NCBI GenBank assembly: GCA_019116025.1
Contig: DXCM01000030.1
Span: 1-32,611 of the forward strand
DNA length: 32,611 nucleotides
Direction of reading: 5' to 3'
From: Candidatus Companilactobacillus pullicola
Lineage (GTDB): Bacteria; Bacillota; Bacilli; Lactobacillales; Lactobacillaceae
A program made the translations under genes and the position numbers. Below are positions 4,283-32,611 of this stretch, in pieces. The stretch's first letter is position 1. Each line of letters starts with the position of its first letter. The notes below the pieces were generated by a model. That model was not told the DNA's origin. It was given only the letters and a program-made list of their open reading frames with translations, and did no database searches.

Positions 4283-4315
4283 ATATGCTGTTGTCCGCAA
4301 AACTTGGGAATGCTC
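4283..4315 (+). repeat. Decayed 5' remnant of the structured repeat family
   Basis: ATATGCTGTTGTCCGCAAAA followed by CTTGGGAATGCT matches the first ~32 nt of type A copies (ATATGCCGTCC..., ...TTGGGAATGC). The rest of the element is missing; only 17 nt separate it from the epimerase stop. Best read as a truncated, dead copy. Confidence 0.55.
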
Positions 4316-9152: not shown

Positions 9153-10436
9153 TTAGTCAAAGTCAACGTCATTAGGGAAATGAGCTAAGTTGGCTTCTTC
9201 GCCTAATTCCTCTTCAATTCTTAATAATTGATTGTATTTAGCTAGACGTTCACCACGGGCTGGAGCACCTGACTTCAATTGCTCAGCGTGCATTGCAACT
9301 GTAAAGTCAGCCAAGAATGAATCTTCAGTTTCACCAGAACGATGTGACATCATTGTTGTATAGCCATTCTTTCTAGCAACACGGATAGCTTCTATGGTTT
9401 CAGATACAGTACCGATCTGATTCAATTTGATCAAGAAACTATTAGCCATGCCTTTCTTAATAGCTTTTCTGAAGAGAGCAGGATTTGTACATACGTTATC
9501 ATCAGTAATAATTTGAACACGATTGCCATTCTTTTGAGTGAATTTAGCAAAATTATCCCAATCATTTTCACCAAATGGATCTTCCATTGATACGATTGCT
9601 GGATACTTGTCTAATAATCCTTCATAGTATGAACCCATTTCATCAGCACTGCGTTTCTTGCCTTCAAACATGTATGAACCATCATCTTGAGCAAAACTTG
9701 AAGCAGCAGCATCAAAGGCGATACCAATTTCTTCACCAGGAACATAACCAGCATCTTTAATAGCCCGATTTAATTCATCAATTGCGGCTTCACTTGATGG
9801 AAGATCGGGAGCAAATCCACCTTCATCACCTAAACCTGTTTGATAACCTTCTTTTTCAAGGTTCTTCTTCAATTGATGGTAAACATTAACAATCTTTTCA
9901 AAACCATCACGGAAGGTTGTACGTTTGATAGGTGTAATTAGAAATTCTTGCATATCGATTCCGTTGTCAGCATGCTCACCACCATTGATTACATTGTGGA
10001 ATGTTTGTGGCAATTCAAGGTCAACACCACCAAGGTAACGGTAAACAGGAACACCTTCTGCATTAGCGGCAGCACGAACTGTGGCAATTGAAACACCTAA
10101 AATAGCATTGGCACCTAACTTAGCCTTATTAGGTGTACCATCAAGATCGATCATCATTTGGTCGATATGTGCTTGATTGAAAGGATCCGCACCTTTTAAT
10201 TTATCATTGATCAAAGTATTAACATTGTTGACGGCTTTCAAAACACCTTTGCCATCTAATCTGTCGCCACCATCACGCAATTCAACGGCTTCATTGTCAC
10301 CAGTTGATTTACCAGATGGAACACTAGCACGACCTAAAACGCCGTTTGAAAGAACAACATCTGCTTCAACGGTTGGGTTACCACGTGAATCAAATACTTC
10401 CCTAGCTTTAACATTCTCAATAGTTACTCTTGACAT
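9153..10436 (-). CDS. eno: Enolase, divergent paralogue
   Basis: Converts 2-phosphoglycerate to phosphoenolpyruvate. It is 427 aa. The N-terminal VFDSRGNPTVEADV, GDEGGFAPDL (catalytic Glu), IKLNQIG (catalytic Lys) and SHRSGETED are all present, and Mg ligands are seen at FDAAASSF, MEDPF and TDD. Yet segments normally almost invariant differ: IEDGLDEND reads MEDPFGEND, and GDDLFVTN reads TDDNVCTN. Several lactobacilli carry a second enolase, and this copy, away from gap-pgk-tpi, may be that type. SD AAGGGAG is 7-8 nt before the ATG. It heads a two-gene operon with the proton ATPase and is preceded by a terminator-like leader hairpin. Confidence 0.93.
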   Translation of the reverse strand: MSRVTIENVKAREVFDSRGNPTVEADVVLSNGVLGRASVPSGKSTGDNEAVELRDGGDRLDGKGVLKAVNNVNTLINDKLKGADPFNQAHIDQMMIDLDGTPNKAKLGANAILGVSIATVRAAANAEGVPVYRYLGGVDLELPQTFHNVINGGEHADNGIDMQEFLITPIKRTTFRDGFEKIVNVYHQLKKNLEKEGYQTGLGDEGGFAPDLPSSEAAIDELNRAIKDAGYVPGEEIGIAFDAAASSFAQDDGSYMFEGKKRSADEMGSYYEGLLDKYPAIVSMEDPFGENDWDNFAKFTQKNGNRVQIITDDNVCTNPALFRKAIKKGMANSFLIKLNQIGTVSETIEAIRVARKNGYTTMMSHRSGETEDSFLADFTVAMHAEQLKSGAPARGERLAKYNQLLRIEEELGEEANLAHFPNDVDFD

Positions 10437-10461: not shown

Positions 10462-10543
10462 AAAAAAAGACGACTACTCCACTTTAAAAAACCCTCAATA
10501 ATTTTCCTCAATTATTACTGGTTATTTAAATAGAGTAGACGTC
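10462..10543 (-). terminator. Terminator-like hairpin in the enolase leader (possible attenuator)
   Basis: On the minus strand GACGTCTACTC (10543-10533) pairs with GAGTAGTCGTC (10479-10469), with one T/T mismatch. The stem continues inward through TTTAAA/TTTAAA and AACC/GGTT, and seven U residues (10468-10462) follow. The T-run faces enolase and ends about 26 nt before its ATG, leaving no room for a promoter, so enolase transcripts must read through it. Confidence 0.75.
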
Positions 10544-10603
10544 ATCAATTACGATTAAGTAATATTTTTCGGCGAACGTCATCGCCTCTTCGAACAAGCT
10601 CAT

Positions 10604-11152: not shown

Positions 11153-11330
11153 TATGCCGTCCTCCATAAACCTGGGGAATGCATTGGAACGCTATGGGCG
11201 CGATTTGAAACTAATTATTTTACACTTCGTGCAAAATAATGGATTTCCAAAGTCGGCCTTATTGTAACCGGCAAAGCCGGTAACAATAATTTCATAGCTG
11301 AACGCATTCCCCAGGTTTACTCCGGACTAG
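11153..11330 (+). repeat. Structured intergenic repeat, type A, copy 2 (complete)
   Basis: Outer stem 11159-11182 pairs with 11304-11327 (GTCC/GGAC, a 4x4 internal loop TCCA/CTCC, then 16 bp). Then comes the internal loop ATTGGAAC/TGAAC and the 6-bp stem GCTATG/CATAGC (11191-11196/11293-11298). Arm 1 is GGC-g-CGA-TTTG paired with CAAA-g-TCG-GCC, topped by ATTATTTT/AAAATAAT. Arm 2 is TATTGT/ACAATA and ACCGGC/GCCGGT around AAA. Compared with the copy at 18685, both the outer stem and arm 2 differ by paired substitutions. No ORF and no U-tail. Confidence 0.88.
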
Positions 11331-11373: not shown

Positions 11374-11448
11374 AAAATAATAGCACCCATTCATTAGTTT
11401 CAATTCTGGCTTCTAAACAAATAACCATGAAACTATGAATAGGTGCTA
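11374..11448 (-). terminator. Terminator of the first GGDEF gene
   Basis: TAGCACC and ATTCAT (11381-11394) and AGTTTCA pair with TGAAACT, ATGAAT and AGGTGCTA (11428-11448). On the minus strand the stem is followed by a T-rich tract (ATTATTTTGATTTT). The sequence is homologous to the hairpin after the second GGDEF gene (18609-18674). Confidence 0.7.
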
Positions 11449-11512
11449 ATTTAATTTCTAAAATAATTGTGATAATGATAAAACATGCTCTGTTTGATCA
11501 GTAGTAAGTCTT

Positions 11513-12721
11513 CTATATTTTAACCACATTAGTTTTCTCATATTGGAAGATCTTGCCCTCAATTGTCATCTCGTCACGTCCATTATTCTTCGATAGATAA
11601 AGATAATTGTCTACTCTCTTAAAGGTATCATCAAAGGATTTATCCGTTCTTCGTAACATCGTTACACCAAAACATAACGTCACATCTAAACGTGTTTCCT
11701 GTATGAACAATGGCATTGCTGTTAAGGTTTGATTGATTCTATTGACGATTTCTCTGGCTCTTTGTGTATCGTTATTTCTTAATAAAATAACAAATTCCTC
11801 ACCGCCATAACGGAATAACTGTCTCTTGCTATCATCAATATGTAACTCACGTTCAACGATATGGGAAACGTGTCTTAAGACTTCATCCCCTACATCATGC
11901 CCATAGTGATCGTTGAATTCTTTAAAATGGTCGATATCAAATAGCATTACGGTTAAAGGAACATTGCTTTGATTATATTTCTCAAATACTTCTTTTGAAA
12001 TTTTATTCAAATTAGCTCTATTACGAACTCCGGTTAATGCATCATAATTGACTTTATTTTCTAAATCGTTATAAGCATGCATATACATACTCATCTTTAG
12101 TTCAATCACACGAACGATGAACATATAAACTTCGAATAGAATCAACATTCCAATAATATCGACTAATGGAAATTTATAATCAATCCAAAGAAAAATCCAC
12201 CAACAAACGCCAAACAATACTTGTGACGATAAATATCGGTAATTAGAAATTGCTAGAACATCTTTATGACTGTAAAGATAATCTATAACAATTATTAAAA
12301 TTAAATAAGCAACGACAAATAACCATGCATACGGCCCTTGAATTCTCGAGATGTCGGATGATGGATGATATAAGAAAGGTAGAAACACATTTAATAAAAC
12401 AATCAAACGATTGTTAAATATAAACAGGCAATAGAATAATATTGTTAACTCGGCATTTGCTAACAAGCCACCTAATTCTACTTCTGTTCCTCCCGTGAAA
12501 CTCTTAAAAACTATTGTAATAATAAAGAGCATCAGTATTAACAGTAGCATCTCGGCAACGTTTATCGAAACTTTTTTGAAAAACGACGATGCTACACTAA
12601 CTTTTCGTTCTAGAACAAAAGATATATATGTAATAATCGAAATTAATCCGATTGTGACTATTCCTGTGACTAAGGCATTTGCACTGAAACAGACTCTTAA
12701 AATTTCCGTTAAATTACCCAA
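11513..12721 (-). CDS. Membrane-bound diguanylate cyclase (GGDEF)
   Basis: Predicted to make cyclic di-GMP from two GTP. The N-terminal ~200 residues form about six membrane helices with no recognisable extracellular sensor; GVCWWIFLWID in helix 5-6 is shared with the paralogue at 17408. The GGDEF domain follows: NYDALTGVRNRANLN, MLFDIDHFKEFNDHYGHDVGDEVL and active-site FRYGGEEF (about residue 305). All catalytic residues are present; there is no RxxD inhibitory site before GGEEF, so classic product inhibition is unlikely. An ATG at 12739 is in frame, but the TTG at 12721 is the better start, with GAGGGG 6 nt upstream, and it aligns exactly with the paralogue's TTG start. Confidence 0.88.
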   Translation of the reverse strand: MGNLTEILRVCFSANALVTGIVTIGLISIITYISFVLERKVSVASSFFKKVSINVAEMLLLILMLFIITIVFKSFTGGTEVELGGLLANAELTILFYCLFIFNNRLIVLLNVFLPFLYHPSSDISRIQGPYAWLFVVAYLILIIVIDYLYSHKDVLAISNYRYLSSQVLFGVCWWIFLWIDYKFPLVDIIGMLILFEVYMFIVRVIELKMSMYMHAYNDLENKVNYDALTGVRNRANLNKISKEVFEKYNQSNVPLTVMLFDIDHFKEFNDHYGHDVGDEVLRHVSHIVERELHIDDSKRQLFRYGGEEFVILLRNNDTQRAREIVNRINQTLTAMPLFIQETRLDVTLCFGVTMLRRTDKSFDDTFKRVDNYLYLSKNNGRDEMTIEGKIFQYEKTNVVKI

Positions 12722-12823
12722 AAGGAACCCCTCACACATTCATTTATATATCCAAGTCTAGCATTAATAAGTTACCTATTAAATTGAAAGTGACAGATTA
12801 ACCGGATTCTTATATGATTTTCA

Positions 12824-12855
12824 TAAAAAAAGAACAAAACTAAAAATAGTTTTGT
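12824..12855 (-). terminator. Terminator of the first NADH oxidase gene
   Basis: ACAAAACTA (12834-12842) pairs with TAGTTTTGT (12847-12855). On the minus strand it is followed by TTCTTTTTTT. It separates the oxidase gene from the downstream GGDEF gene. Confidence 0.8.
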
Positions 12856-12867
12856 CCTTAATGATTT

Positions 12868-14199
12868 TTAATTATTATTATCTTCTTTATCAATTGCTTG
12901 TTGTGCAACTAAATTAAGATAATTAAATGGATTATCGTAATTTGGTTGGAATAACATATCAACAAAAGCTAAATCATCAATTGTATTCCCATTTTGAATA
13001 CAGATTGACAATGCATTAGCTGACTGAGCAACTTCATGTTTACTGAACAATTGTGCACCTAAGACTTTTCTAGTGTCCTTATCATAAATCAGATAAATCG
13101 TTGGCATATAATCTGGACGATAATTGTCGTGGTAAGTAACACAATCAGCATTTAATCCGTTTGCCAAAGCTTTCTTTAAAGTCAATCCTGTTTCAGCTAA
13201 AGTGTAACCGAATAATGCCATGGCTGTGGTAGCCTGTGTTCCCATATACTTACGAACATTGCCAAAGACATTCAATCCGGCCAAAGTTCCCTGACGAACA
13301 GCACTAGAAGCTAATGGGATATACTTCATCTCACCAGTTGGATTGAATTTAACTGCACAAGAATCACCGGCAGCAAAAATATCAGGATCTGAAGTTTGCA
13401 TGTAATCATTAACTAAAATGGCTCCATAACCGTCCATTTGAACTTGACCACGTAGCAAATCAGTATTAGCGAAAAAGCCAGTACATACAATAACCAAATC
13501 AGCCTTATAAGCGTGACCAGCTTTAGTTTTAATAGTTAACTGATCGCCATCTTCAATTTCCGCAACACGTTCACCAAGTGCAACTTTTACATCGTGTTCT
13601 TTAAGCTTTTCAATGATAGTCTGTGATAGTGGCTCATCAACATAATTATTGAGAATTTGTTCTCTTGATTGAATCAAGGTTACTTCGTGAACGGTATTAG
13701 CATAACTTTCGGCCAATTCTACTCCCACATATCCAGCACCAACAATGGCAATGCTAGGATAGTTTAAAGCAGACTCATAAATCTTTTTGGCTTGGTCATA
13801 ACTCTTACATAATAAAACACGTGGGTTGTCCATTCCGCCAATTGGTGGAACGCCAACTTCTGAACCAGTTGTCATGATCAATTTATCATAACTGTCTTCA
13901 AAAATTTCTTCTGTGTTTAAGTCCTGAACAATAATTTTCTTATTCTTTGAATCAATCTTAATAACGTTATGTTTCATATGAACCTTAGCGCCATAACCTT
14001 CAAGCGTGGTTGGATCAGCATAAAACATGTCTTCTAGTCGATTGACGATTCTTCCTAAATACAATGCTATCCCACATGATAGGAATGCAATATTATCATC
14101 ACGTTCATATACGGTAACTTCCGTATCTGGATGTTTTTTTAATATTTGTTCCACTGCAGCTGTTCCAGCATGTGTACATCCGACAACGATTACTTTCAA
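12868..14199 (-). CDS. nox: NADH oxidase-type FAD flavoprotein, first copy
   Basis: A 443-aa class III pyridine-nucleotide disulphide oxidoreductase, most like water-forming NADH oxidase, which removes O2 and regenerates NAD+. FAD motif VIVVGCTHAGTAAV at residues 3-16, redox-active Cys42 in FLSCGIAL, NADH-binding IAIVGAGYVGVELAES, and the second FAD motif TSDPDIFAAGDSCA are visible. Close relatives include CoA-disulphide reductase and NADH peroxidase, so exact chemistry is inferred. Compared with the copy at 15826, four residues are missing in the loop around YMPTIYLIYD, near the dimer domain. Start is TTG at 14199 behind GAGGAGG. Confidence 0.87.
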   Translation of the reverse strand: MKVIVVGCTHAGTAAVEQILKKHPDTEVTVYERDDNIAFLSCGIALYLGRIVNRLEDMFYADPTTLEGYGAKVHMKHNVIKIDSKNKKIIVQDLNTEEIFEDSYDKLIMTTGSEVGVPPIGGMDNPRVLLCKSYDQAKKIYESALNYPSIAIVGAGYVGVELAESYANTVHEVTLIQSREQILNNYVDEPLSQTIIEKLKEHDVKVALGERVAEIEDGDQLTIKTKAGHAYKADLVIVCTGFFANTDLLRGQVQMDGYGAILVNDYMQTSDPDIFAAGDSCAVKFNPTGEMKYIPLASSAVRQGTLAGLNVFGNVRKYMGTQATTAMALFGYTLAETGLTLKKALANGLNADCVTYHDNYRPDYMPTIYLIYDKDTRKVLGAQLFSKHEVAQSANALSICIQNGNTIDDLAFVDMLFQPNYDNPFNYLNLVAQQAIDKEDNNN

Positions 14200-14361
14200 C
14201 AGTCGGTTCCTCCTCTACAGTACCCAATAAATTATTCTCTCTGCTCATTAAAGCTTATACAAACACCTAGTTACATTATATCAATCTATTTAAATTTTCA
14301 TATGTTATAAATGGACTTTTTAAATTTCAAATATCGACAATGCACAGTTGATTATTTGTAA

Positions 14362-14367
14362 TATAAT
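14362..14367 (+). promoter_or_regulatory. -10 box upstream of the GNAT gene
   Basis: TATAAT about 40 nt before the ATG; no convincing -35. Tentative promoter for the GNAT-EAL pair. Confidence 0.4.
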
Positions 14368-14405
14368 AACAAGTGTATTGACTTTTTTAAAAGCGGTGGT
14401 AAATA

Positions 14406-14840
14406 ATGAACAAAATCAAATCTTCCAATGATATAAATTCTGATATCTATCAAGACAGTGTCAACATTCGAACCAAAGTATTCGTAGATGAACAGAATGT
14501 TCCAGCTGAAATCGAAATAGATGCTGATGAAGACAAATGTACTTATTTTGTTCTTTACAGTAACAACAAAGCCGCAGCTACTGCCAGATTCCAAGTCACT
14601 TCAGATAATGGAATCCACATTCAAAGAGTCGCCGTACTTAAAAGTTTTCGTCACCAACATTTAGGGTCAGATCTCTTAGAATACATTTTTAACTATGCTA
14701 AACAACACAATTTTAATTACATTATTTTAGGTGCCCAAGATCACGCTCAAGCTTTTTATACACAATTAGGATTTAAGGTTGTCGGTGAACAATACGAAGA
14801 AGCCGGGATCCTTCATCATGACATGAGATTAAGCTTGTAG
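14406..14840 (+). CDS. GNAT-family N-acetyltransferase (YjcF/ElaA-like)
   Basis: A 144-residue acetyltransferase. The opening region VFVDEQNVPAEIEIDADED is typical of the YjcF/ElaA branch, followed by ARFQV, the acetyl-CoA-binding motif RVAVLKSFRHQHLGSDLL (the R/Q-x-x-G-x-G/A position is HQHLGS), and GAQDHAQAFYTQLGFKVVG with the C-terminal GILHHDM. The substrate is unknown. It lies 79 nt upstream of the EAL gene on the same strand and could share its transcript. The SD (GGTGG) is moderate, 6 nt before the ATG. Confidence 0.85.
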   Translation: MNKIKSSNDINSDIYQDSVNIRTKVFVDEQNVPAEIEIDADEDKCTYFVLYSNNKAAATARFQVTSDNGIHIQRVAVLKSFRHQHLGSDLLEYIFNYAKQHNFNYIILGAQDHAQAFYTQLGFKVVGEQYEEAGILHHDMRLSL

Positions 14841-14919
14841 TATTATTGGTTCGGTGCATTTATTCCAAGTTAAGAAATAATAAATCAAGAATCGATTAGA
14901 ACTAACAAAGGAGTTTGTT

Positions 14920-15603
14920 ATGTACAGATATTTTATTCAACCCCAACTTGATAAGGTGAATAACTCATTAATTGGTTATGAGTTATTAATGAAGGAAAAA
15001 AAGCCCGAAGGATGGCGTCCACCAGCAAACTTTTCCGATGTCCCTTCTCACCTTATGGCTCAAGTCTTAGTTGAAACAACGAAATTACTATCATTAAAGA
15101 TTGGTTCCGTTTCAGTAAATATTAACCGTAACCAACTAATGGACGAAGAAGTACGAGATGCCATCATTGAAGCACAAAGAATCCTCCGTCCCTTAAGATT
15201 AGTAGTAGAACTAACCGAAGATACGCCTAATCAAAATTGGAGCAACGAAGAATACATTTCCTTAATTAAAGAATTTATCGACTATGGCATGGACTTCAGC
15301 CTTGATGACTGTGGTACCGGAACAAACCAAATGGATCAGATCAAAGACATGATCCCACTAGCCGCCGAAATCAAATTTGCCATTCAAAATTTTGGAGAGA
15401 AATTACGCGATCCTGACATTGAGAGTAAAGTGATTTATTGGCGCGATATCTGCAAAAAACAAAATATCCGTTTTATCCTTGAAGGAATAGAAGACGACAA
15501 AGACGATGCCCTAGCAGACAAATTAGGAATCGACCTACGTCAAGGATACTATTACGGAAAGCCAAGATTGTTAAAATTAAAAGCAGACGATGACGTATTT
15601 TAG
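14920..15603 (+). CDS. EAL-domain protein (putative c-di-GMP phosphodiesterase)
   Basis: A stand-alone EAL domain of 227 aa, without sensor or membrane segment. Motif by motif: EAL reads GYELLMK (Glu kept), SVNINRNQ keeps the Asn, VELTED keeps Glu, DDFGTG reads DDCGTG (both Asp kept), the Lys of the KID motif is kept but reads IKFA, LEGIED keeps Glu, and QGYYYGKP is intact. Most metal and catalytic positions are therefore present, with a changed loop 6 (DCGTGTNQM) and KID motif, so activity is likely but not certain; a c-di-GMP-binding role is the alternative. A strong AAAGGAG site lies 8 nt before the ATG. It is flanked on both sides by GGDEF genes within 3 kb, forming a complete make-and-break set. 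Confidence 0.88.
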   Translation: MYRYFIQPQLDKVNNSLIGYELLMKEKKPEGWRPPANFSDVPSHLMAQVLVETTKLLSLKIGSVSVNINRNQLMDEEVRDAIIEAQRILRPLRLVVELTEDTPNQNWSNEEYISLIKEFIDYGMDFSLDDCGTGTNQMDQIKDMIPLAAEIKFAIQNFGEKLRDPDIESKVIYWRDICKKQNIRFILEGIEDDKDDALADKLGIDLRQGYYYGKPRLLKLKADDDVF

Positions 15604-15725
15604 AGAGCGAAACAGGCCCGGGAATTTCCGAGGATTTGCCTAAGTGTCAGAATTGCACGCGCACTTGGCGGGCGATTTTGACACTGTAGCAAACCGGAAG
15701 AAATTGGCCTGTGGAGCTCGTTTCC
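15604..15725. repeat. Large single hairpin of a different class
   Basis: It begins at the EAL stop. ACAGGCC (15612-15618) pairs with GGCCTGT (15706-15712); AATTTC with GAAATT, TTTGC with GCAAA; then a 14-bp stem, AGTGTCAGAATTGC against GCGATTTTGACACT, with two G/T wobbles. The tip is CGC/GCG. The base composition is richer in GC than its surroundings. There is no U-tail in either direction, so it is not a simple terminator; it may be a repeat element or a stable 3' end. Only one copy is in this window. Confidence 0.6.
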
Positions 15726-15771
15726 ACTATTCCGCATAGAACCATGGTTATTAAAAAAATAAAATCCAAAC

Positions 15772-15810
15772 AAAAAAAGGAGATGCTAAAACTCAAAGCA
15801 TCCCCTTTTT
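15772..15810. terminator. Bidirectional terminator of the second NADH oxidase gene
   Basis: AAAAAGGAGATGCT pairs with AGCATCCCCTTTTT around a short loop, with A- and T-runs on the two sides. It lies 16 nt from the oxidase stop. Confidence 0.88.
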
Positions 15811-15825
15811 ACTTTATACAAAATT

Positions 15826-17169
15826 TTATTTTTCTTGACGTTCTTTAGCGACAGCCATTTGAGCAACCAAATTCAAGTAGTTAAATGGATTATCGTAATT
15901 TGGTTGGAACAACATATCCATGAAAGCCAAATCATCAATCGTATTCTTATTTTGAATACATACTGACAAAGTATCAGCTGACTGAGCAACTTCATGTTTA
16001 CTGAACAATTGTCCACCAAGAATCAAACGTGTGTCCTTATCATAAACTAGTCTGATCGTTAACATCGCTGTCGTTGGCATATAAGCTGGACGATAGTAGT
16101 CGTGGTATTCAACAACATCCGCGTTCATTCCATGTTCTAACGCATGTCCTAATGTCAATCCGGTTGAAGCAACTGTGTATCCAAATAATTCCATAGCCGA
16201 AGTAGCTTGTGTACCCATATACTTTTGAATATTTCCAAAAACATTAATACCAGCCAAAGCACCTTGTCTGATTGCATTAGTTGCTAGTGGCATATAAGCA
16301 TGTTCATGTGTTGGATTAAAGTAAACTGTACATGCATCCCCTGCAGCATAAATATCAGGATTTGAAGTTTGGGTATATTCATTAATAATAATGGCACCAC
16401 GACGATCCATATCCACTTGTCCACGCAATAAACCTGTATTAGCGACAAAACCTGTGCAGACGATAACTAAATCAGCCTTGTGATCTTCTTTAGTTGTTTC
16501 AATAACAATATTGTCATCGTCATCACGATTAAAGCCGTTAACATTTTCATTCAAATAAACGTCAACACCATGTTCTCTTAACAAATCAACAACTTTTTCA
16601 GACATGTCAGGATCAATGTAGTGGTTCAAGACTTGATCTCTTGATTGAATCAAAGTTACTTGATGGTTTGTATTAGCGTAACTTTCAGCCAACTCTACCC
16701 CAATATAACCACCACCAACAATGGCGATATGTTTGTAGTCTTTTGCAGTATCATGAATTGCTTGTGCATAACTCTTACACATCAAAATTCTTGAATCCGA
16801 AATTCCCATAATAGGTGGCACTACTACAGTTGAGCCAGTTGTCATAATTAATTTGTCATAAGTATCATTAATTATTTCGTGAGTCTCCATATTTTCGCAC
16901 ATCAAAGTCTTGTTTTCAGAATCAATCTTCAAGACATCATGCTTCATTTTGATTGTAGCACCTAATTTTTCTAGATCCTTGGGGCTAGCGTAAAACATAT
17001 CTTCCAAACGTTTTACTTTACCGCCTAGGTACAAGGCAATTCCACAAGATAAAAATGAGATATTATCGTCACGTTCATAAACTGTAACTTCTGTATCTGG
17101 ATGTTCCTGAAGAATTTGTTCTACGGCCGCAGTCCCTGCGTGAGTACATCCTACAACTACTACTTTCAT
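15826..17169 (-). CDS. nox: NADH oxidase-type FAD flavoprotein, second copy
   Basis: Paralogue of the gene at 12868, 447 aa. It keeps VVVVGCTHAGTAAV, Cys42 in FLSCGIAL, IAIVGGGYIGVELAES and TSNPDIYAAGDACT, so the same flavin- and cysteine-based reduction of O2 by NADH is expected. The loop YMPTTAMLTIRLVYD has the usual length, unlike the first copy. The frame runs open to 17229, but the ATG at 17169 with GAGGGG upstream gives the normal N-terminus; the extra 20 residues are not family-like. It diverges from the second GGDEF gene, with which it shares a ~240-nt regulatory region. Confidence 0.88.
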   Translation of the reverse strand: MKVVVVGCTHAGTAAVEQILQEHPDTEVTVYERDDNISFLSCGIALYLGGKVKRLEDMFYASPKDLEKLGATIKMKHDVLKIDSENKTLMCENMETHEIINDTYDKLIMTTGSTVVVPPIMGISDSRILMCKSYAQAIHDTAKDYKHIAIVGGGYIGVELAESYANTNHQVTLIQSRDQVLNHYIDPDMSEKVVDLLREHGVDVYLNENVNGFNRDDDDNIVIETTKEDHKADLVIVCTGFVANTGLLRGQVDMDRRGAIIINEYTQTSNPDIYAAGDACTVYFNPTHEHAYMPLATNAIRQGALAGINVFGNIQKYMGTQATSAMELFGYTVASTGLTLGHALEHGMNADVVEYHDYYRPAYMPTTAMLTIRLVYDKDTRLILGGQLFSKHEVAQSADTLSVCIQNKNTIDDLAFMDMLFQPNYDNPFNYLNLVAQMAVAKERQEK

Positions 17170-17407
17170 TTGATTTTCCCCTCTCAAAATTTGAGTAAAA
17201 TTTATATTAGAAAACGAATAATGAAGCATAACTTTAAAAAATATCTATCGTTTCACCCATCATTATAAACCTATAAAATTATAAATAAATACGTGTATAC
17301 TGATACATAACGTTACTCAAAAGTAATCAATCATTAAATACTTTATATTACTACAACATAATCCCATAGGCACCAATTTTATGAATCACCGAATGGAGGA
17401 GGTAATT
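17170..17407. promoter_or_regulatory. Divergent promoter region, NADH oxidase 2 / GGDEF 2
   Basis: Very AT-rich. Candidate -10 boxes: TATACT at 17296-17301 rightwards, and a TATAAT on the minus strand near 17260-17265. Neither has a clear -35. I found no recognisable operator, so the basis of any co-regulation is unknown. Confidence 0.35.
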
Positions 17408-18604
17408 TTGAATATCCTAAACGAGATCACCACTAAATACGTGAATCTCACTTCAACCATTATCACCTTAGTTACTATCGGTCTAATTACCGTTATTACT
17501 ATTATTGCTTATGGTTTGGAAAGAAGAATTGACGATAAGTCCCCTATTTATTTTAAACTGCCAGTTCATTTAGCTGAAGGTGCTGTTTTGGCAGGTAGCA
17601 TGATCATCCTTCAAAAGACTTTCCTAGTATTAAACAATGGATCGGTCAACAACGGTTGGTTATACGCCAACGCTCAACTAACTATCCTGTTATATGCTAT
17701 GTATCTTCTACGAAATAAAATAATTTTGCTTATTAATTTACTAATGCCTTTTGCATATCACCAATCCGCAAATATTCAACGCTTAGGTAGCAGTAGATGG
17801 CCCTATTTTCTTATCTCATACATTTTCTTGGTAGCTATCATCATTTATATCTATTGGCAAACTGACAGTCTAAAAGATAGTACAATCAAATATCTCACCT
17901 TACAAATCCTATACGGAGCTGCATGGTGGATATTACTCTGGGTCGATCACAGTTTTCCATTTTATAATATTTTCAATATGTTAATAGTCTTCGTTATTTA
18001 CATGGCCATTATCAGGTATTGTGAACATAAGATGCAATTAACTTTGAATGGGTATGATACTTTAAAGAAAGTCGTTAATTATGACGAATTAACTGGAATA
18101 AGAAATCGTTCCAGTTTAGATAAGAATTCCAAAGAGATCTATAAACAGTATTCACATGAAGATGATGTTCCTCTAAGCATGGCCATGTTTGATATCGACC
18201 ATTTTAAACTTTTTAATGATAAATACGGCCACTCAACTGGTGATGAAGTTTTACGTCACGTTGCCCATACAATGGATCGTGAATTATACTTGAAGAAAAC
18301 ACACGGACAAATTTTTCGTTTTGGTGGTGAGGAGTTTATCATCGTCTTTCGTGGTAAAACCGCCGAAGAATGCAAACCCATTATTACCGATTTAAGAAAC
18401 ACCTTACTTCATTCACCATTATTCTTTAATGGCATGCGACTAAATGTCAGTGTATCTTTTGGTATTTCAGAATTAAAGCCAACTGATAGTGGCTTCGCTG
18501 ATTTGTTCAACCGAGTTGACAGTTATCTTTACAAGTCTAAAAATGCCGGTCGTAATAAAATGACCATTGAAAATGTCACATATGATTTTGATAAAACTGA
18601 ATAA
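17408..18604 (+). CDS. Membrane-bound diguanylate cyclase (GGDEF), paralogue
   Basis: About 398 aa with the same plan as the gene at 11513: six N-terminal helices including GAAWWILLWVD, then NYDELTGIRNRSSLD, MFDIDHFKLFNDKYGHSTGDEVL and FRFGGEEF (about residue 307). Catalytic residues are intact; there is no RxxD inhibitory site (the sequence before the motif is KKTHGQIF). The frame opens at an ATG at 17381, but GGAGGAGG at 17395-17402 lies 5 nt before the TTG at 17408, which is the likely start and aligns with the paralogue (LNEITTKYV against LTEILRVCF). Different N-termini within a shared fold suggest the two sense different inputs. Confidence 0.88.
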   Translation: MNILNEITTKYVNLTSTIITLVTIGLITVITIIAYGLERRIDDKSPIYFKLPVHLAEGAVLAGSMIILQKTFLVLNNGSVNNGWLYANAQLTILLYAMYLLRNKIILLINLLMPFAYHQSANIQRLGSSRWPYFLISYIFLVAIIIYIYWQTDSLKDSTIKYLTLQILYGAAWWILLWVDHSFPFYNIFNMLIVFVIYMAIIRYCEHKMQLTLNGYDTLKKVVNYDELTGIRNRSSLDKNSKEIYKQYSHEDDVPLSMAMFDIDHFKLFNDKYGHSTGDEVLRHVAHTMDRELYLKKTHGQIFRFGGEEFIIVFRGKTAEECKPIITDLRNTLLHSPLFFNGMRLNVSVSFGISELKPTDSGFADLFNRVDSYLYKSKNAGRNKMTIENVTYDFDKTE

Positions 18605-18608
18605 TTAA

Positions 18609-18674
18609 AAATAGCATCCATTCAGATTTCCTCCGATTCTGGGGAAAATTTGAATGGGTGCTATTTATTTTTTA
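18609..18674 (+). terminator. Terminator of the second GGDEF gene
   Basis: ATAGCATCCATTCA pairs with TGAATGGGTGCTAT (G/T wobbles allowed), followed by TTATTTTTTAT. Its stem sequence is homologous to the hairpin after the first GGDEF gene. Confidence 0.8.
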
Positions 18675-18684
18675 TAGTGGAGAT

Positions 18685-18860
18685 TGCCGTCCTCCACAAG
18701 AATTGGGAACGCGGTTGGAACGCTATGGGCGCGATTCGGAGCTAATTATTTTACACTTCGTGCAAAATAATGGATCTTCGAACTCGGCCTCATTGTAAAT
18801 GGCAAAGCCATTAACAATGATCTCACAGCTGAACGCATTCCCAATTCTTGCTCCGGACTA
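18685..18860 (+). repeat. Structured intergenic repeat, type A, copy 3 (complete)
   Basis: Outer stem: GTCC, internal loop TCCA/CTCC, then CAAGAATTGGGAACGC against GCATTCCCAATTCTTG. Six base pairs GCTATG/CACAGC with one mismatch; arm 1 TTCG/CGAA where copy 2 has TTTG/CAAA; arm 2 CATTGT/ACAATG and AATGGC/GCCATT. The 3' flank AAAGAGTACTTCTATTGT (to 18878) is shared with the copy at 20373-20547, so the unit may extend that far. Confidence 0.88.
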
Positions 18861-18865
18861 AAGAG

Positions 18866-19168
18866 TACTTCTATTGTTTGTATGTTTTTAAATATTAGAT
18901 AGCAAGACAGTGAACTACAGTTACTTCGTTAATATGTATTTTAACCAAACTTTTTAAGAACCAATAAATTTCATTACTGAGCCAATTTCCCTATTTTCAA
19001 GACAAAAAAATAGTGAGAAATTAATCTCACCGTCGGGAAGGAATCAGTTGTTTTTAAATCTGGTAGTCCCTATATGTCATAGTAAACCATGTTCGGCCTG
19101 ACCGCAATAGTATAAATTGAGAATCTTAACTCTTTTTTTAATAATTAATATAATTTCTTAAATACCAG
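18866..19168. other. AT-rich spacer with a leftward terminator
   Basis: No credible ORF. On the minus strand, downstream of the YczE-like gene, GTGAGA/TCTCAC (19013-19030) is followed by TATTTTTTT (19010-19004), an intrinsic terminator about 140 nt past that gene's stop. The intervening sequence can form short hairpins (CGG/CCG around 19100, CATGG/CTATG near 19085), so the transcript has a long structured 3' end. Confidence 0.5.
19004..19030 (-). terminator. Distal terminator of the YczE-like gene
   Basis: GTGAGA pairs with TCTCAC around a 6-nt loop, with a run of seven U residues on the minus strand. Confidence 0.65.
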
Positions 19169-19930: not shown

Positions 19931-19983
19931 TAAAACTTATTTAAGTTTGGTTGTAGTCGTTAATACTAACTGATGTAGTTGAA

Positions 19984-20165
19984 ATATGCCGCCGTCCGCA
20001 AAAAATCTGTGGGCCACTGGAACGTGGTGGACACGGCTTGAAGCTAATAATTTTTCACTCTGTGAAAAATCATGGATCTCCAAGTCCGGTCTTCTACTAA
20101 CCTTGCTACGCAAGCTAAGTAGAATGGCACCACTGAGGGCCCACAGATTTTTTACTACCGACTAG
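19984..20165 (+). repeat. Structured intergenic repeat, type B, copy 4 (complete)
   Basis: The outer stem AAAAAATCTGTGGGCC pairs with GGGCCCACAGATTTTTT; 6-bp stem GTGGTG/CACCAC replaces GCTATG/CATAGC of type A; arm 1 is GAC-a-CGG-CTTG against CAAG-t-CCG-GTC; arm 2 is TTCTACT/AGTAGAA with CTTGC/GCAAG. Its 5' end (GCCGTCCGC) is type A-like while its 3' end (ACTACCGAC) is type B, so the outermost bases do not pair: a hybrid end. Confidence 0.87.
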
Positions 20166-20241
20166 ATTCATGGTTTTAATATTATTAGACAAATTTGAAA
20201 GGTGTTTTTGGTTTTTCACAATTTAGAATTGTTAATAATAA

Positions 20242-20295
20242 AAGAAGAAGCATCCATATCAACCAATGTACCTGGTTATATGGATGCTTCTTTCG
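20242..20295 (+). terminator. Stand-alone hairpin between two repeats
   Basis: GAAGCATCCATAT (20247-20259) pairs perfectly with ATATGGATGCTTC (20278-20290). After a one-base bulge AACCA pairs with TGGTT. TTTCGATTT follows. It is terminator-like with a short U-tract, but no gene ends here. Confidence 0.55.
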
Positions 20296-20372
20296 ATTTA
20301 AAAGTGATTTTTAGAAATAGAAAGGATACTGGATTAAGTAATTCATTGTAATTGCACAATAGAAGTACTCTT

Positions 20373-20547
20373 TAGTCCGGAGCAAAAATTGGGAATGCGT
20401 TCAGCTATGAGATCATTGTTAATGGCTTTGCCATTTACAATGAGGCCGACTTTGGAAATCCATTATTTTGCACGAAGTGGAAAATAATTAGTTTCAAATC
20501 GCGCCCATAGCGTTCCAACAGCATTCCCATTTTTTGCGGAGGACGGG
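20373..20547 (-). repeat. Structured intergenic repeat, type A, copy 5 (complete)
   Basis: Minus-strand copy: GTCCTCCGCAAAAAATGGG... pairs with ...CCCAATTTTTGCTCCGGAC. It shares the AAAGAGTACTTCTATTGT 3' flank with the copy at 18685. Tail to tail with the type B copy at 19984; 45 nt beyond the multicopper oxidase stop. Confidence 0.87.
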
Positions 20548-20592
20548 AATTTAAATATATTCTCCAATCTAACCAAACTTTAGCAAGTATCC

Positions 20593-22056
20593 TTATTTAT
20601 TCATTGGGTGATTCATTTCATCCATACTTAATAGATGATACTTATGTTCATGATCTGGATCATAAGCCTCAATTTGAGCCATCATCCCTGTATCCTCGTG
20701 TTCAAGGATATGACAGTGATACATGTAGACACCAAATTTAGTGAACTGTACAGCAATTCTAACTGTTTCACCAGCATTGACACCAACAGTATCCTTCCAA
20801 CCATGTTCATTAGGATATGGTGCCTTACCATTACGACTGATAACTAAGAATTGACAGCCATGCATGTGGAACGGATGAATCATACCAGCATCCATATCGT
20901 TAGTATTAACAACATCCCATAGGACGGTGTCACCAATTTTTTGACGACGGTCGATTCTTTGCATATCAAAGAGTTTGCCATCAAGTCTAACTTGATCATC
21001 CATACCTGACATAACGGTACGAGTGATAGGTAAACCAGGTGTTACTTCTGGAGCATTGATTGTTGTGAGATGTTCGGGAAGTTTGGTATCATCTGGAGCA
21101 TATTGGCCAATCTTAAATTTCATAATTGGCATGTCATCACTCATCAAAGTAACCACATCACCAGGATTCTTGTCACCAAAGTTAACAATAACTTCAGCAC
21201 GTTCAGCACAAGTTAACATCAACTTAGTTAACTCAACTGGCTCTGGCAAAGTACCACCATCAGAAGCAATTTGAGTAAATTCATGATTATCGTCAAAATG
21301 AAGACGCCATTCACGACGATCGGAACCATTTAAAATTCTTAAACGAACTCTTTGAGTTGTAACATCAAAGACACCATTGATTGTGCCGTTAACTAAAGCA
21401 TATTTACCTAAAGTACCATCGATATCGTAATCTTTCTTATAATCCAATTGATTATCATGATAACTTCTATCTTGTAAAATAATTGGAATATCATCCACAC
21501 CATAATTGCGTGGGAATGGTAATTTGGCTTCCTGGGCATCTGTTACAACAACAGCTGCAGCTAATCCATTCCAAACCTGACGAGCTGTGTTAGGACATGG
21601 ATGTGGGTGAATCCAATCAGTTTGTGCAGGTTGATCTAGTGTAAAGTCAATATCACGACTGCCACCTGGATAAACTGGAGCATGGGGACCACCATCAACG
21701 ATAGGTCCTGTAACATTTAGTCCATGCCAATGGAAAGTAGTAACTTCTGGTAATTTATTAACAAGATGCACATGGTAGTGAACTCCTTGCTTCAAAACAA
21801 TCGTTTGGCCCAATAATGAAGTGTTGTAACCCCATGTCTTAGTCTTAGCACCAGGCAAAATTTGAGTTTCACCCTCTTGTGCTGTGATTGTGTAATAAAC
21901 ATCGTTACCCTCTACCTTGTCTGGTTTCAAAGCAGCTGGGATATTCAATGGATGATCAGGCATATCCACTTTTTCTAGTGGTACATAACCTCCATCGTGC
22001 AAATCAAATACTGGTTCATCAAAGAAATAATCATTGTAAACTTTTGTTTCTGACAT
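20593..22056 (-). CDS. Multicopper oxidase (laccase-like)
   Basis: A 487-aa three-cupredoxin-domain oxidase that couples one-electron substrate oxidation to reduction of O2 to water. Four copper motifs are seen: TFHWHGLNV and WIHPHPCPNTARQVWNG in the first domain, HPFHMHGCQF and YMYHCHILEHEDTGMM in the last (type 1 Cys, His and Met in HCHILEHEDTGM). The second motif reads HPHPCPNT instead of the common HPHPHGKT; both ligand histidines are kept. No signal or Tat peptide, so it is cytoplasmic or released otherwise. Related lactobacillar laccases oxidise phenols and biogenic amines; the natural substrate here is unknown. SD AGGGTGG lies 9 nt upstream. It follows a small membrane protein gene by 14 nt. 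Confidence 0.92.
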   Translation of the reverse strand: MSETKVYNDYFFDEPVFDLHDGGYVPLEKVDMPDHPLNIPAALKPDKVEGNDVYYTITAQEGETQILPGAKTKTWGYNTSLLGQTIVLKQGVHYHVHLVNKLPEVTTFHWHGLNVTGPIVDGGPHAPVYPGGSRDIDFTLDQPAQTDWIHPHPCPNTARQVWNGLAAAVVVTDAQEAKLPFPRNYGVDDIPIILQDRSYHDNQLDYKKDYDIDGTLGKYALVNGTINGVFDVTTQRVRLRILNGSDRREWRLHFDDNHEFTQIASDGGTLPEPVELTKLMLTCAERAEVIVNFGDKNPGDVVTLMSDDMPIMKFKIGQYAPDDTKLPEHLTTINAPEVTPGLPITRTVMSGMDDQVRLDGKLFDMQRIDRRQKIGDTVLWDVVNTNDMDAGMIHPFHMHGCQFLVISRNGKAPYPNEHGWKDTVGVNAGETVRIAVQFTKFGVYMYHCHILEHEDTGMMAQIEAYDPDHEHKYHLLSMDEMNHPMNK

Positions 22057-23455: not shown

Positions 23456-23596
23456 GCAAAAAGTCATCATCAAGGATTTATCAAACAATTCATTAATAAA
23501 AATATTTTCTTGCGCAAACAATTGATTTGTTTCATAATACATAAACGTTGATTCTTAAATTCAGGTATAGATAATATCAACTTATATACGTTAAAG

Positions 23597-23677
23597 ATGC
23601 CGTTGGTAGTAGAAAATCTGTCGGCCACTGGAACGTGGTGGACACGGCTTGAAGCTAATAATTTTCTACTACCAACT
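23597..23677 (+). repeat. Structured intergenic repeat, type B, copy 6 with internal deletion
   Basis: It matches the type B copy at 19984 from ATGCC through TGGAACGTGGTGG to GCTAATAATTTTC, then jumps directly to the 3' end TACTACCAAC. ATTTTC occurs at both deletion edges in intact copies, so a short-homology deletion removed about 95 nt. The ends GTTGGTAGTAGAAAAT and ATTTTCTACTACCAAC remain a perfect 16-bp inverted repeat. Confidence 0.85.
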
Positions 23678-23871
23678 ATATTTCTGATTCTATTATTACA
23701 ACATTGCGTTATTCGAATATTCTCTAACTTCATATGGTCAGATAAGGATTATGAGGTCTGGATTAAGTGAAAAAGATGTTTATTAGTGAAATACATGGAT
23801 GTATCTCATTTTTAGTGAATACCATTCTTACCATCTGATATCTTAAAGTCCCCCAAAAATAGAACCGGATA
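23678..23871. other. Spacer between repeats, no gene seen
   Basis: About 195 nt with no credible ORF or ribosome site. Only short inverted repeats are visible (TCAGAT near 23739 and ATCTGA near 23836). Its sequence is unlike the corresponding spacer at 20166-20372. Confidence 0.5.
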
Positions 23872-24048
23872 CTAGTCCGGAGCAAAAATTGGAAATGCGT
23901 TCAGCTATGAAATCATTGTTAATGGCTTCGCCATTTACAATGAGGCCGACTTTGGAAATCCATTATTTTGCACGAAGTGGAAAATAATTAGTTTCAAATC
24001 GCGCCCATAACGTTCCAACAGCATTCCCAATTTTTGTGGAGGACGGCA
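23872..24048 (-). repeat. Structured intergenic repeat, type A, copy 7 (complete)
   Basis: Minus-strand copy closely matching the one at 20373-20547. Outer stem CAAAAATTGGGAATGC against GCATTTCCAATTTTTG; arm 2 AATGGC/GCCATT around GAA. It ends about 50 nt before the marR start and points away from it. Confidence 0.87.
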
Positions 24049-24101
24049 ATTAAACACTACAACTGCAATTACGCAGCAATCTAAAATAGGAGGTGGTAAA
24101 T

Positions 24102-32471: not shown

Positions 32472-32611
32472 ATATGCCACCCTCCACAACAAGCCCGATT
32501 GGTCTGGAACGCTGTGGACACTGATTTGAGCCAATTGAAGTTCACAATTGTCTCAAATTCAGGTCTTTTACTAGGTGATAAATCACCAAGTAAAATTTCA
32601 CGGCTGAGACC
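32472..32611 (+). repeat. Structured intergenic repeat, third sequence variant, truncated by window end
   Basis: Starts ATATGCCACCCTCCACAAC; its outer-stem 5' arm ends GATTGGTC, and GAGACC at the window edge is the start of the 3' arm. The conserved TGGAAC/TGA loop, 6-bp stem GCTGTG/CACGGC, arm 1 (GAC-a-CTG-ATTTGAG against CTCAAAT-t-CAG-GTC) and arm 2 (TTTTACT/AGTAAAA, GGTGAT/ATCACC) all re-form with bases quite unlike types A and B. It begins 10 nt after the DUF915 stop. Confidence 0.82.

Follow-up and report, generated by a model that had tools for sequence, protein, structure and literature searches.

What kind of element keeps its fold while the letters of its stems turn over, and does that fold matter as RNA or as DNA? 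This question is raised by a family of repeats of about 175 nt in a Companilactobacillus draft genome (2.93 Mb, 99 contigs), one whole contig of which (G000:C4), 32,611 nt long, is the window analysed here. A sequence-only reading of the window had listed eight copies and a remnant, and had proposed that they form a structured repeat with a covarying two-armed fold. All nine places exist: seven were recovered by a covariance model, on the strands noted and at E values of 2e-15 or better, one by BLAST and one by eye (Table 1). That reading stated neither the subtypes nor the convergent pairing of the copies, and, although the structured repeat itself has stood, the actual unit is larger, an insertion with two modules turned towards each other. 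The copies at 1-125 and 32472-32611 are incomplete because the window is a whole contig ending in repeats; since the contig both starts and stops inside modules, these repeats probably break the assembly of this genome. The fragment at 18970-18990 has the same orientation as the module at 18685-18860 and is therefore not its convergent partner. Five genes are grouped between two module A copies, at window positions 11513-18604; we take them to be two GGDEF-like genes (in opposite orientation), two paralogous NADH-oxidase-like genes and one EAL-like gene.

Table 1. Modules, units and associated features in the 32,611-nt window.
Feature	Position	Strand	Basis
Module B, cut by contig end	1..122	-	covariance model, 105.7 bits, cut at 3'
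33-nt fragment like the left outer stem of module A	4283..4315	+	sequence only, by eye
Module A without recognisable partner module	11155..11329	+	covariance model, 189.2 bits
Hairpin of spacer type, 3' of module 11155-11329	11376..11451		sequence
Module A without recognisable convergent partner	18685..18860	+	covariance model, 187 bits
Probable module 3' stem fragment (TTCATTACTGAGCCAATTTCC)	18970..18990	+	visual comparison with modules of subtypes C and D
Unit 1, left 8-bp target duplication CTTATTTA	19936..19943		identical to 20592-20599
Unit 1, 648-bp insertion	19944..20591		whole block missing from G028 and G014
Module B of unit 1	19987..20164	+	covariance model, 186.7 bits
Spacer hairpin of unit 1, 15-bp stem	20245..20292		sequence
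Module A of unit 1	20373..20548	-	covariance model, 192.5 bits
Unit 1, right 8-bp target duplication CTTATTTA	20592..20599		sequence
Unit 2 insertion, ends approximate, no clear duplication	23553..24086		missing from G028 and G014
Internally deleted module B of unit 2	23597..23677	+	BLAST only, 98% over 53 nt
Module A of unit 2	23873..24048	-	covariance model, 191.1 bits
Module D, cut by contig end	32475..32611	+	covariance model, 69.9 bits, cut at 3'

Across the genome, the covariance model finds at least 150 modules of about 175 nt. These are the best 150 of 1881 first-look candidates, and as every one of the 150 that were scored matched, the true number is probably above 150. An extended list of 189 modules comprises the aligned 150 and 39 weaker or truncated copies added by hand (one via BLAST); the 109 of 297 model matches that were left off it are all opposite-strand echoes inside modules. 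The 189 fall into subtypes A (91), B (74), C (10) and D (14). The most regular aspect of their arrangement is that close neighbours always face each other: among the 150 best modules, neighbours no more than 600 nt apart are convergent in 36/36 cases, and among the 189, neighbours less than 700 nt apart are convergent in 72/72. The same orientation was seen in two other species, in 8/8 and 1/1 pairs among the matches listed. Paired modules are of different subtype in 68 of the 72 pairs and are separated by a spacer of 100-455 nt (median 205.5), and 45 modules of this genome have no detected partner. The unit is thus laid out as two inverted modules of about 175 nt, with their 3' ends inward and an AT-rich spacer between them, and the three units that were measured are 648, 534 and 609 bp long (about 530-650). 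In unit 1, ISL3-like ends enclose module B, the spacer and module A in that order, the left end being some 12 nt shorter than the right. Some spacers, and window 18970-18990, also contain short pieces of module in other orientations.

The spacers have features of their own. Their ends are alike between units (20 compared), and a hairpin with a stem of at least 12 bp is present in 16 of 72 spacers, against 3 of 360 letter shuffles. The hairpins at window 20245-20292 and at loci L111 and L145 carry runs of A and T on their sides and recurring cores (CTATTAAG...CTTAATAG and ATATCAACC...GGTTGATAT) with variable stems. They have the look of a second family of structured repeats, similar to terminators. 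Hairpins of this sort also follow a host gene (window about 18605-18675) and occur within two ISL3 elements (L209 and L210).

Seven sites were compared with the sister species G028 and G014, and three units were found to be cleanly absent there, two of them with exact 8-bp duplications. The site of unit 1 is uninterrupted in both relatives, each of which has one extra T at that point. A unit in L184 is bordered on both sides by exactly the same 8 bp, AAGATAAG, and its site is likewise uninterrupted in both; unit 2, whose ends are worn, is missing from both. The other four compared sites, all in L184, were not clean, the relatives holding remnants or other sequence. At L175, a unit with an internally deleted left module has a near-duplication (CAAATTTT/CAAATCTT, 7 of 8) adjoining the ends GGTTCTTACTC and GATTCTTTCTC. 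Over 67 units, exact words of at least 8 nt common to both flanks numbered 27, against 20.5 +/- 4.4 for mismatched flanks (maximum 31); this is not significant, and a duplication is therefore not visible for most units. Measured from the modules, the two validated insertion boundaries are 37 and 43 nt further out.

The ends of the units lead to the ISL3 family of insertion sequences. Read by eye from the copies of this genome, the end consensus is GGTTCTTACTCAAATTTGGTTGT. Two intact ISL3 elements of the genus, found through Pfam PF01610 in genomes G006 and G009, terminate in GGTTCTTTCTCAAGTTTGGTTATAA and GGTTCTTTCTTAAACTTGGTTAGAA, which score 21/25 and 19/25 against this consensus. They are flanked by target duplications of 7 bp (CATCTGA, G006) and 8 bp (GTTTTGCC, G009), and their transposases, of 608 and 609 aa, reach 226.7 and 241.6 bits with NCBIfam NF033550 (cut-off 180). 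In G019, two broken copies retain both ends; a 7-bp duplication (TTTTTGA) flanks one of them and none flanks the other. When the G006 end was used as a query, a match of at least 17/25 was found within 75 nt outside the module for 12 of 179 own modules, against 1 far upstream, 0 on the reverse strand and 0 with a shuffled end; most unit ends are eroded, a clear one being present at only these 12. Since other ISL3 groups of the genus have ends of up to 18/25 against the consensus, part of this resemblance is general to ISL3.

The units are probably ISL3-type MITEs, because three are absent as blocks from relatives, two of these are bordered by exact 8-bp duplications, and such outer ends as survive resemble those of a flanked ISL3 element. 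Of the features by which a MITE is recognised, terminal inverted repeats in common with an autonomous element are present, and a target duplication of about 8 bp with a clean empty site is seen for two units; internal sequence derived from the autonomous element was not found when the two intact elements were considered. With ISL3 elements (NF033550) and their MITEs, the units have in common the end GGTTCTT...TTGGTTA and a target duplication of 7 to 8 bp, as judged against those two intact elements. They differ in that the two intact elements are without a module, the modules are non-coding, and the draft genome of the window yielded no ISL3 transposase. The outcome that the sequence-only reading had named as speaking against it, modules that are degraded copies of a protein-coding mobile element, was not seen, neither intact ISL3 element holding one. 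Two of the 72 units lie mostly within an ORF of at least 100 aa. Counting all groups, 25 of 36 genus genomes have an ISL3 transposase, and the long group (608-609 aa) is intact in 2 of the 36, with pieces in a few others. In G009, the intact ISL3 element lies 44 nt from a module. In G017, weak module-like matches (25.7 and 22.3 bits) sit at the edges of two broken long-group copies (L321, L336). At L318 of G006, a second ISL3-like end pair (1296 and 3394) encloses the intact insertion sequence, as though, judging from the sequence, the latter had inserted into a further element that shares its ends.

The fold of the module consists of a short terminal helix, a long stem, an internal loop and a three-way junction with two arms, and the stems and covarying pairs that had been quoted for it are real. 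In the 150 own copies, standard pairs fill 98.4% of 8680 cells, against 83.3 +/- 0.2% after shuffling, and 45 of 58 pairs have changed on both sides, against 27.7 +/- 1.9; in 51 copies of other species, 96.4% of 2556 cells are paired and 57 of the 58 pairs have changed on both sides. The observed covariation was reached by 0 of 500 shuffles in either set, and pairing falls to 35-49% in both when the partner is shifted by one to three columns. Because both alignments had been fitted to the covariance model, which leans towards the structure, separate alignments matter: in one made with MAFFT and RNAalifold from 30 of the 150 own copies, changes were again mostly compensated. Two offset single-base bulges, already described as kept in the window, are retained in 147/150 and 150/150 own copies, with doubly changed pairs flanking them on both sides. 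The strands of the internal loop are conserved in sequence, GGAAC being kept in 135 and CTGA in 125 of the 150 own copies, and both are found again in many copies from other species. At the module ends, letters close to TGCCG and GACTA are likewise common across species.

Covariation is the usual sign of structured RNA. A G.T on one strand is, however, an A.C on the other, and an RNA under constraint would be expected to prefer G.T on its sense strand. As a yardstick, RNase P RNA from 30 of the 36 Companilactobacillus genomes was treated as the modules were, and gave a G.T/A.C ratio of 31.7 on the sense strand (190 to 6) and of 8.4 on the antisense strand, the latter mainly because of the structure choice. 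The ratios of the modules are lower than both: 3.1 on the strand of the sequence-only reading (here called forward) and 5.2 on the reverse for own modules (30 of 150 used), and 1.24 and 2.0 for those of other species (30 of 51 used). Compensated changes per G.T amount to 2.9-13.8 in modules and 0.86 in RNase P RNA. In the fitted 150-copy alignment, with one constant G.T pair removed, there are 75 G.T and 98 A.C cells. Changes present in no more than two copies of subtype A or B comprise 48 compensated pairs, 35 G.T, 45 A.C and 24 other, and recent one-sided changes stand, G.T to A.C, at 7 to 19 in subtype A and 28 to 26 in subtype B. An excess of G.U well above A.C on a sense strand, as a structured RNA should have, was not found, the reverse strand of the own group coming closest. 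These results point to folded DNA or arm-to-arm copying, rather than ordinary structured RNA. The earlier alternative of RNA or DNA is thereby narrowed, the wobble speaking against an ordinary RNA, and the own species group is less clear-cut.

It can still be hypothesised that the modules are a structured RNA family, transcribed perhaps from the reverse strand and acting in processing, stability or the regulation of neighbouring genes, which the mobile unit merely spreads; we regard this as unlikely, though it is the foremost of the alternatives. It would fit the three-way junction with its sequence-conserved internal loops, and, in the own group, several features of the reverse strand: this strand has the better folding energy in 139 of the 150 own copies and in 52 of 54 from near relatives, fixed 1x1 mismatches on the forward strand are mostly A.C, that is, G.U on the reverse (A.C to G.T 231:59 in own copies and 75:14 in near relatives), and G.T takes up 5.0% of reverse-strand cells in own modules, against 6.9% in RNase P RNA. 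The other species disagree. Their fixed mismatches lean the opposite way (20:45), for which reason the pattern is read as DNA constraint or arm copying, and just 34 of 50 of their copies favour the reverse strand; subtype D also folds better on the forward strand in 7 of 11 modules. Reverse-strand RNA was accordingly rejected as the main reading, on the disagreement of the other species and the different behaviour of the RNase P control. Gene context also argues against an RNA role. The 58 classifiable units lie in 41 tandem, 9 convergent and 8 divergent gene gaps, against 193, 44 and 36 for all neighbouring ORF pairs in the same stretches; the mix is about that of the background and suggests no gene-related role. 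A terminator function, which had been doubted at the outset for want of a U-tail, is not supported as the role of the module by these same rates. The 45 single modules lie in 26 tandem, 11 convergent and 0 divergent gaps, with 8 unclear. The proposed check against Rfam returned no module match in the window at gathering score, only a tRNA and a fluoride riboswitch, and a scan of unit 1 under relaxed settings gave nothing with E below 0.02. The riboswitch (window 10529-10595, minus strand) lies upstream of an enolase-like gene (9153-10436, minus strand).

A second alternative dispenses with function. One arm of an extruded hairpin might be copied from the other, by template switching or mismatch repair, so that the fold is kept, and transposition and gene conversion would spread the products. 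The 48 compensated changes among variants in at most two copies, far above a hand estimate of independent double mutations, agree with this proposition, as does the fact that wobble is not favoured. Copying should nevertheless erase single-base bulges, yet both are kept almost throughout, and the conserved GGAAC and CTGA strands, recurring in other species, are equally at odds with it. We consider it rather improbable, and it is from the bulges that the shape itself is argued to be selected. Of the earlier wording, selection or self-templated repair, the covariation of a folded molecule has thus proved genuine, and repair alone leaves the kept bulges unexplained. How copies exchange sequence bears on a further alternative. 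Of 22 comparisons between modules at the same site, only 3 have the two as mutual best matches (ranks range from 1 to 161), and L215 and L124, one insertion in two species, agree in their flanks and outermost stem and have interiors of different subtype. As far as the sequences tell, copies seem to undergo gene conversion in the interiors of their modules. Same-site comparisons are therefore unsafe for judging upkeep after insertion, and a count over seven same-site module pairs (33 compensated, 23 one-sided and 1 other change) was set aside as confounded; the same-site count omitted rows labelled as same site but different type, and own modules outside the 150-copy alignment. The modules could alternatively be folded single-strand DNA sites for recombination or transposition, following the logic of attC or of REP/IS200 ends and served by a putative enzyme. 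In integron attC sites, structure with conserved bulges outweighs stem sequence, and the modules may be alike in this functional sense only, their shape and bulges being kept over stem sequence. The common end letters near TGCCG and GACTA, and the closely matching flanks around an exchanged interior at L215 and L124, would also suit such a site. However, the modules have no known integrase or cassette array and are inverted rather than tandem, the validated boundaries lie beyond them, and ordinary gene conversion accounts for the interior exchange, so that this reading appears the least probable of the three alternatives.

We think it moderately likely that the paired modules are parts of a non-autonomous ISL3-type element (MITE), with a fold constrained as DNA and module interiors that are exchanged. 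An ISL3-type transposase of the 608-609 aa group would have moved the units in trans. Each module would act as a three-way-junction foldback, with its long outer stem, GGAAC/CTGA internal loop, two arms and two single-base bulges, while its letters turn over. The constraint would be exerted on an extruded or single-stranded form of the DNA, which we infer because changes run mostly from Watson-Crick to Watson-Crick pairs and no strand is consistently preferred across species. A protein probably binds the shape of the module during the spread or upkeep of the element, and the exchange of interiors between copies could then spread coherent variants.

The range of the family exceeds this genome. 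In a scan of named genomes by sequence pattern, 21 stretches came up, in C. kimchii, C. paralimentarius and an uncultured Lactobacillus MAG. In a sample of 60 genomes, matches were found in 32, all of them Companilactobacillus (32/36 of the genus, own genome included), and in 0 of the 24 genomes outside the genus. A broader model, built from other species, matched 9 of 246 genomes of the order: 3 of 5 genus members sampled, five genomes of three further Lactobacillaceae genera, each with at least 12 matches, and a single weak match (E 1e-4) in another family. The search of related Lactobacillaceae that the sequence-only reading had proposed was thus rewarded. No end above 16/25 was found at five loci from the other genera, and the module may therefore predate its ISL3-like vehicle. 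One may go further and suppose a widespread lactobacillar element, composed of two mirror-image three-armed modules that a protein would recognise as folded DNA, and that would serve as swappable cassettes, older than and portable across transposition systems; this is a tentative proposition and on balance an unlikely one. A 93-nt piece of unit 1 is present at 84% identity on two mobilizable plasmids, NZ_CP040738.1 and NZ_CP104775.1, of C. futsaii and Pediococcus inopinatus; such plasmids are a possible route between genera. No phage record matched unit 1.

In the literature searches made, no description of the module family was found among the matches listed. Two known repeats can be set beside it: bcr1 of the Bacillus cereus group, on the structure and compensatory changes of which papers reportedly appeared in 2004 and 2011, and Efa-1 of Enterococcus faecalis, later named EFAR, which inserts into stem-loops. 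In the excerpt of the source that covers it, bcr1 is a short, multiplied, group-restricted repeat with mobile-DNA features and a mean of 39 copies per strain, up to 130 (PMC6542083). It differs in having a TTTAT motif and a possible site-specific mechanism rather than ISL3-like ends, and the same excerpt does not mention inverted pairs (PMC6542083). Efa-1, in the corresponding portion of its description, is an intergenic repeat of 163 bp, with 65 copies listed, that adopts a fold of two adjacent hairpins (PMC2267715). On that partial description it is set apart by a double hairpin in place of a three-way junction and by the lack of inverted pairing (PMC2267715).

The family is real and very abundant; its paired modules with wobble-poor covariation are the new part, and its vehicle is of a known kind. 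Nearly every pair of the module covaries, yet the wobble suggests folded DNA, or arms copying each other. If this is true, the family warns against equating covariation with RNA function, offers extensive natural data on selection for DNA foldbacks in vivo, and may account for the breaks that assemblies of these genomes show at the repeats.
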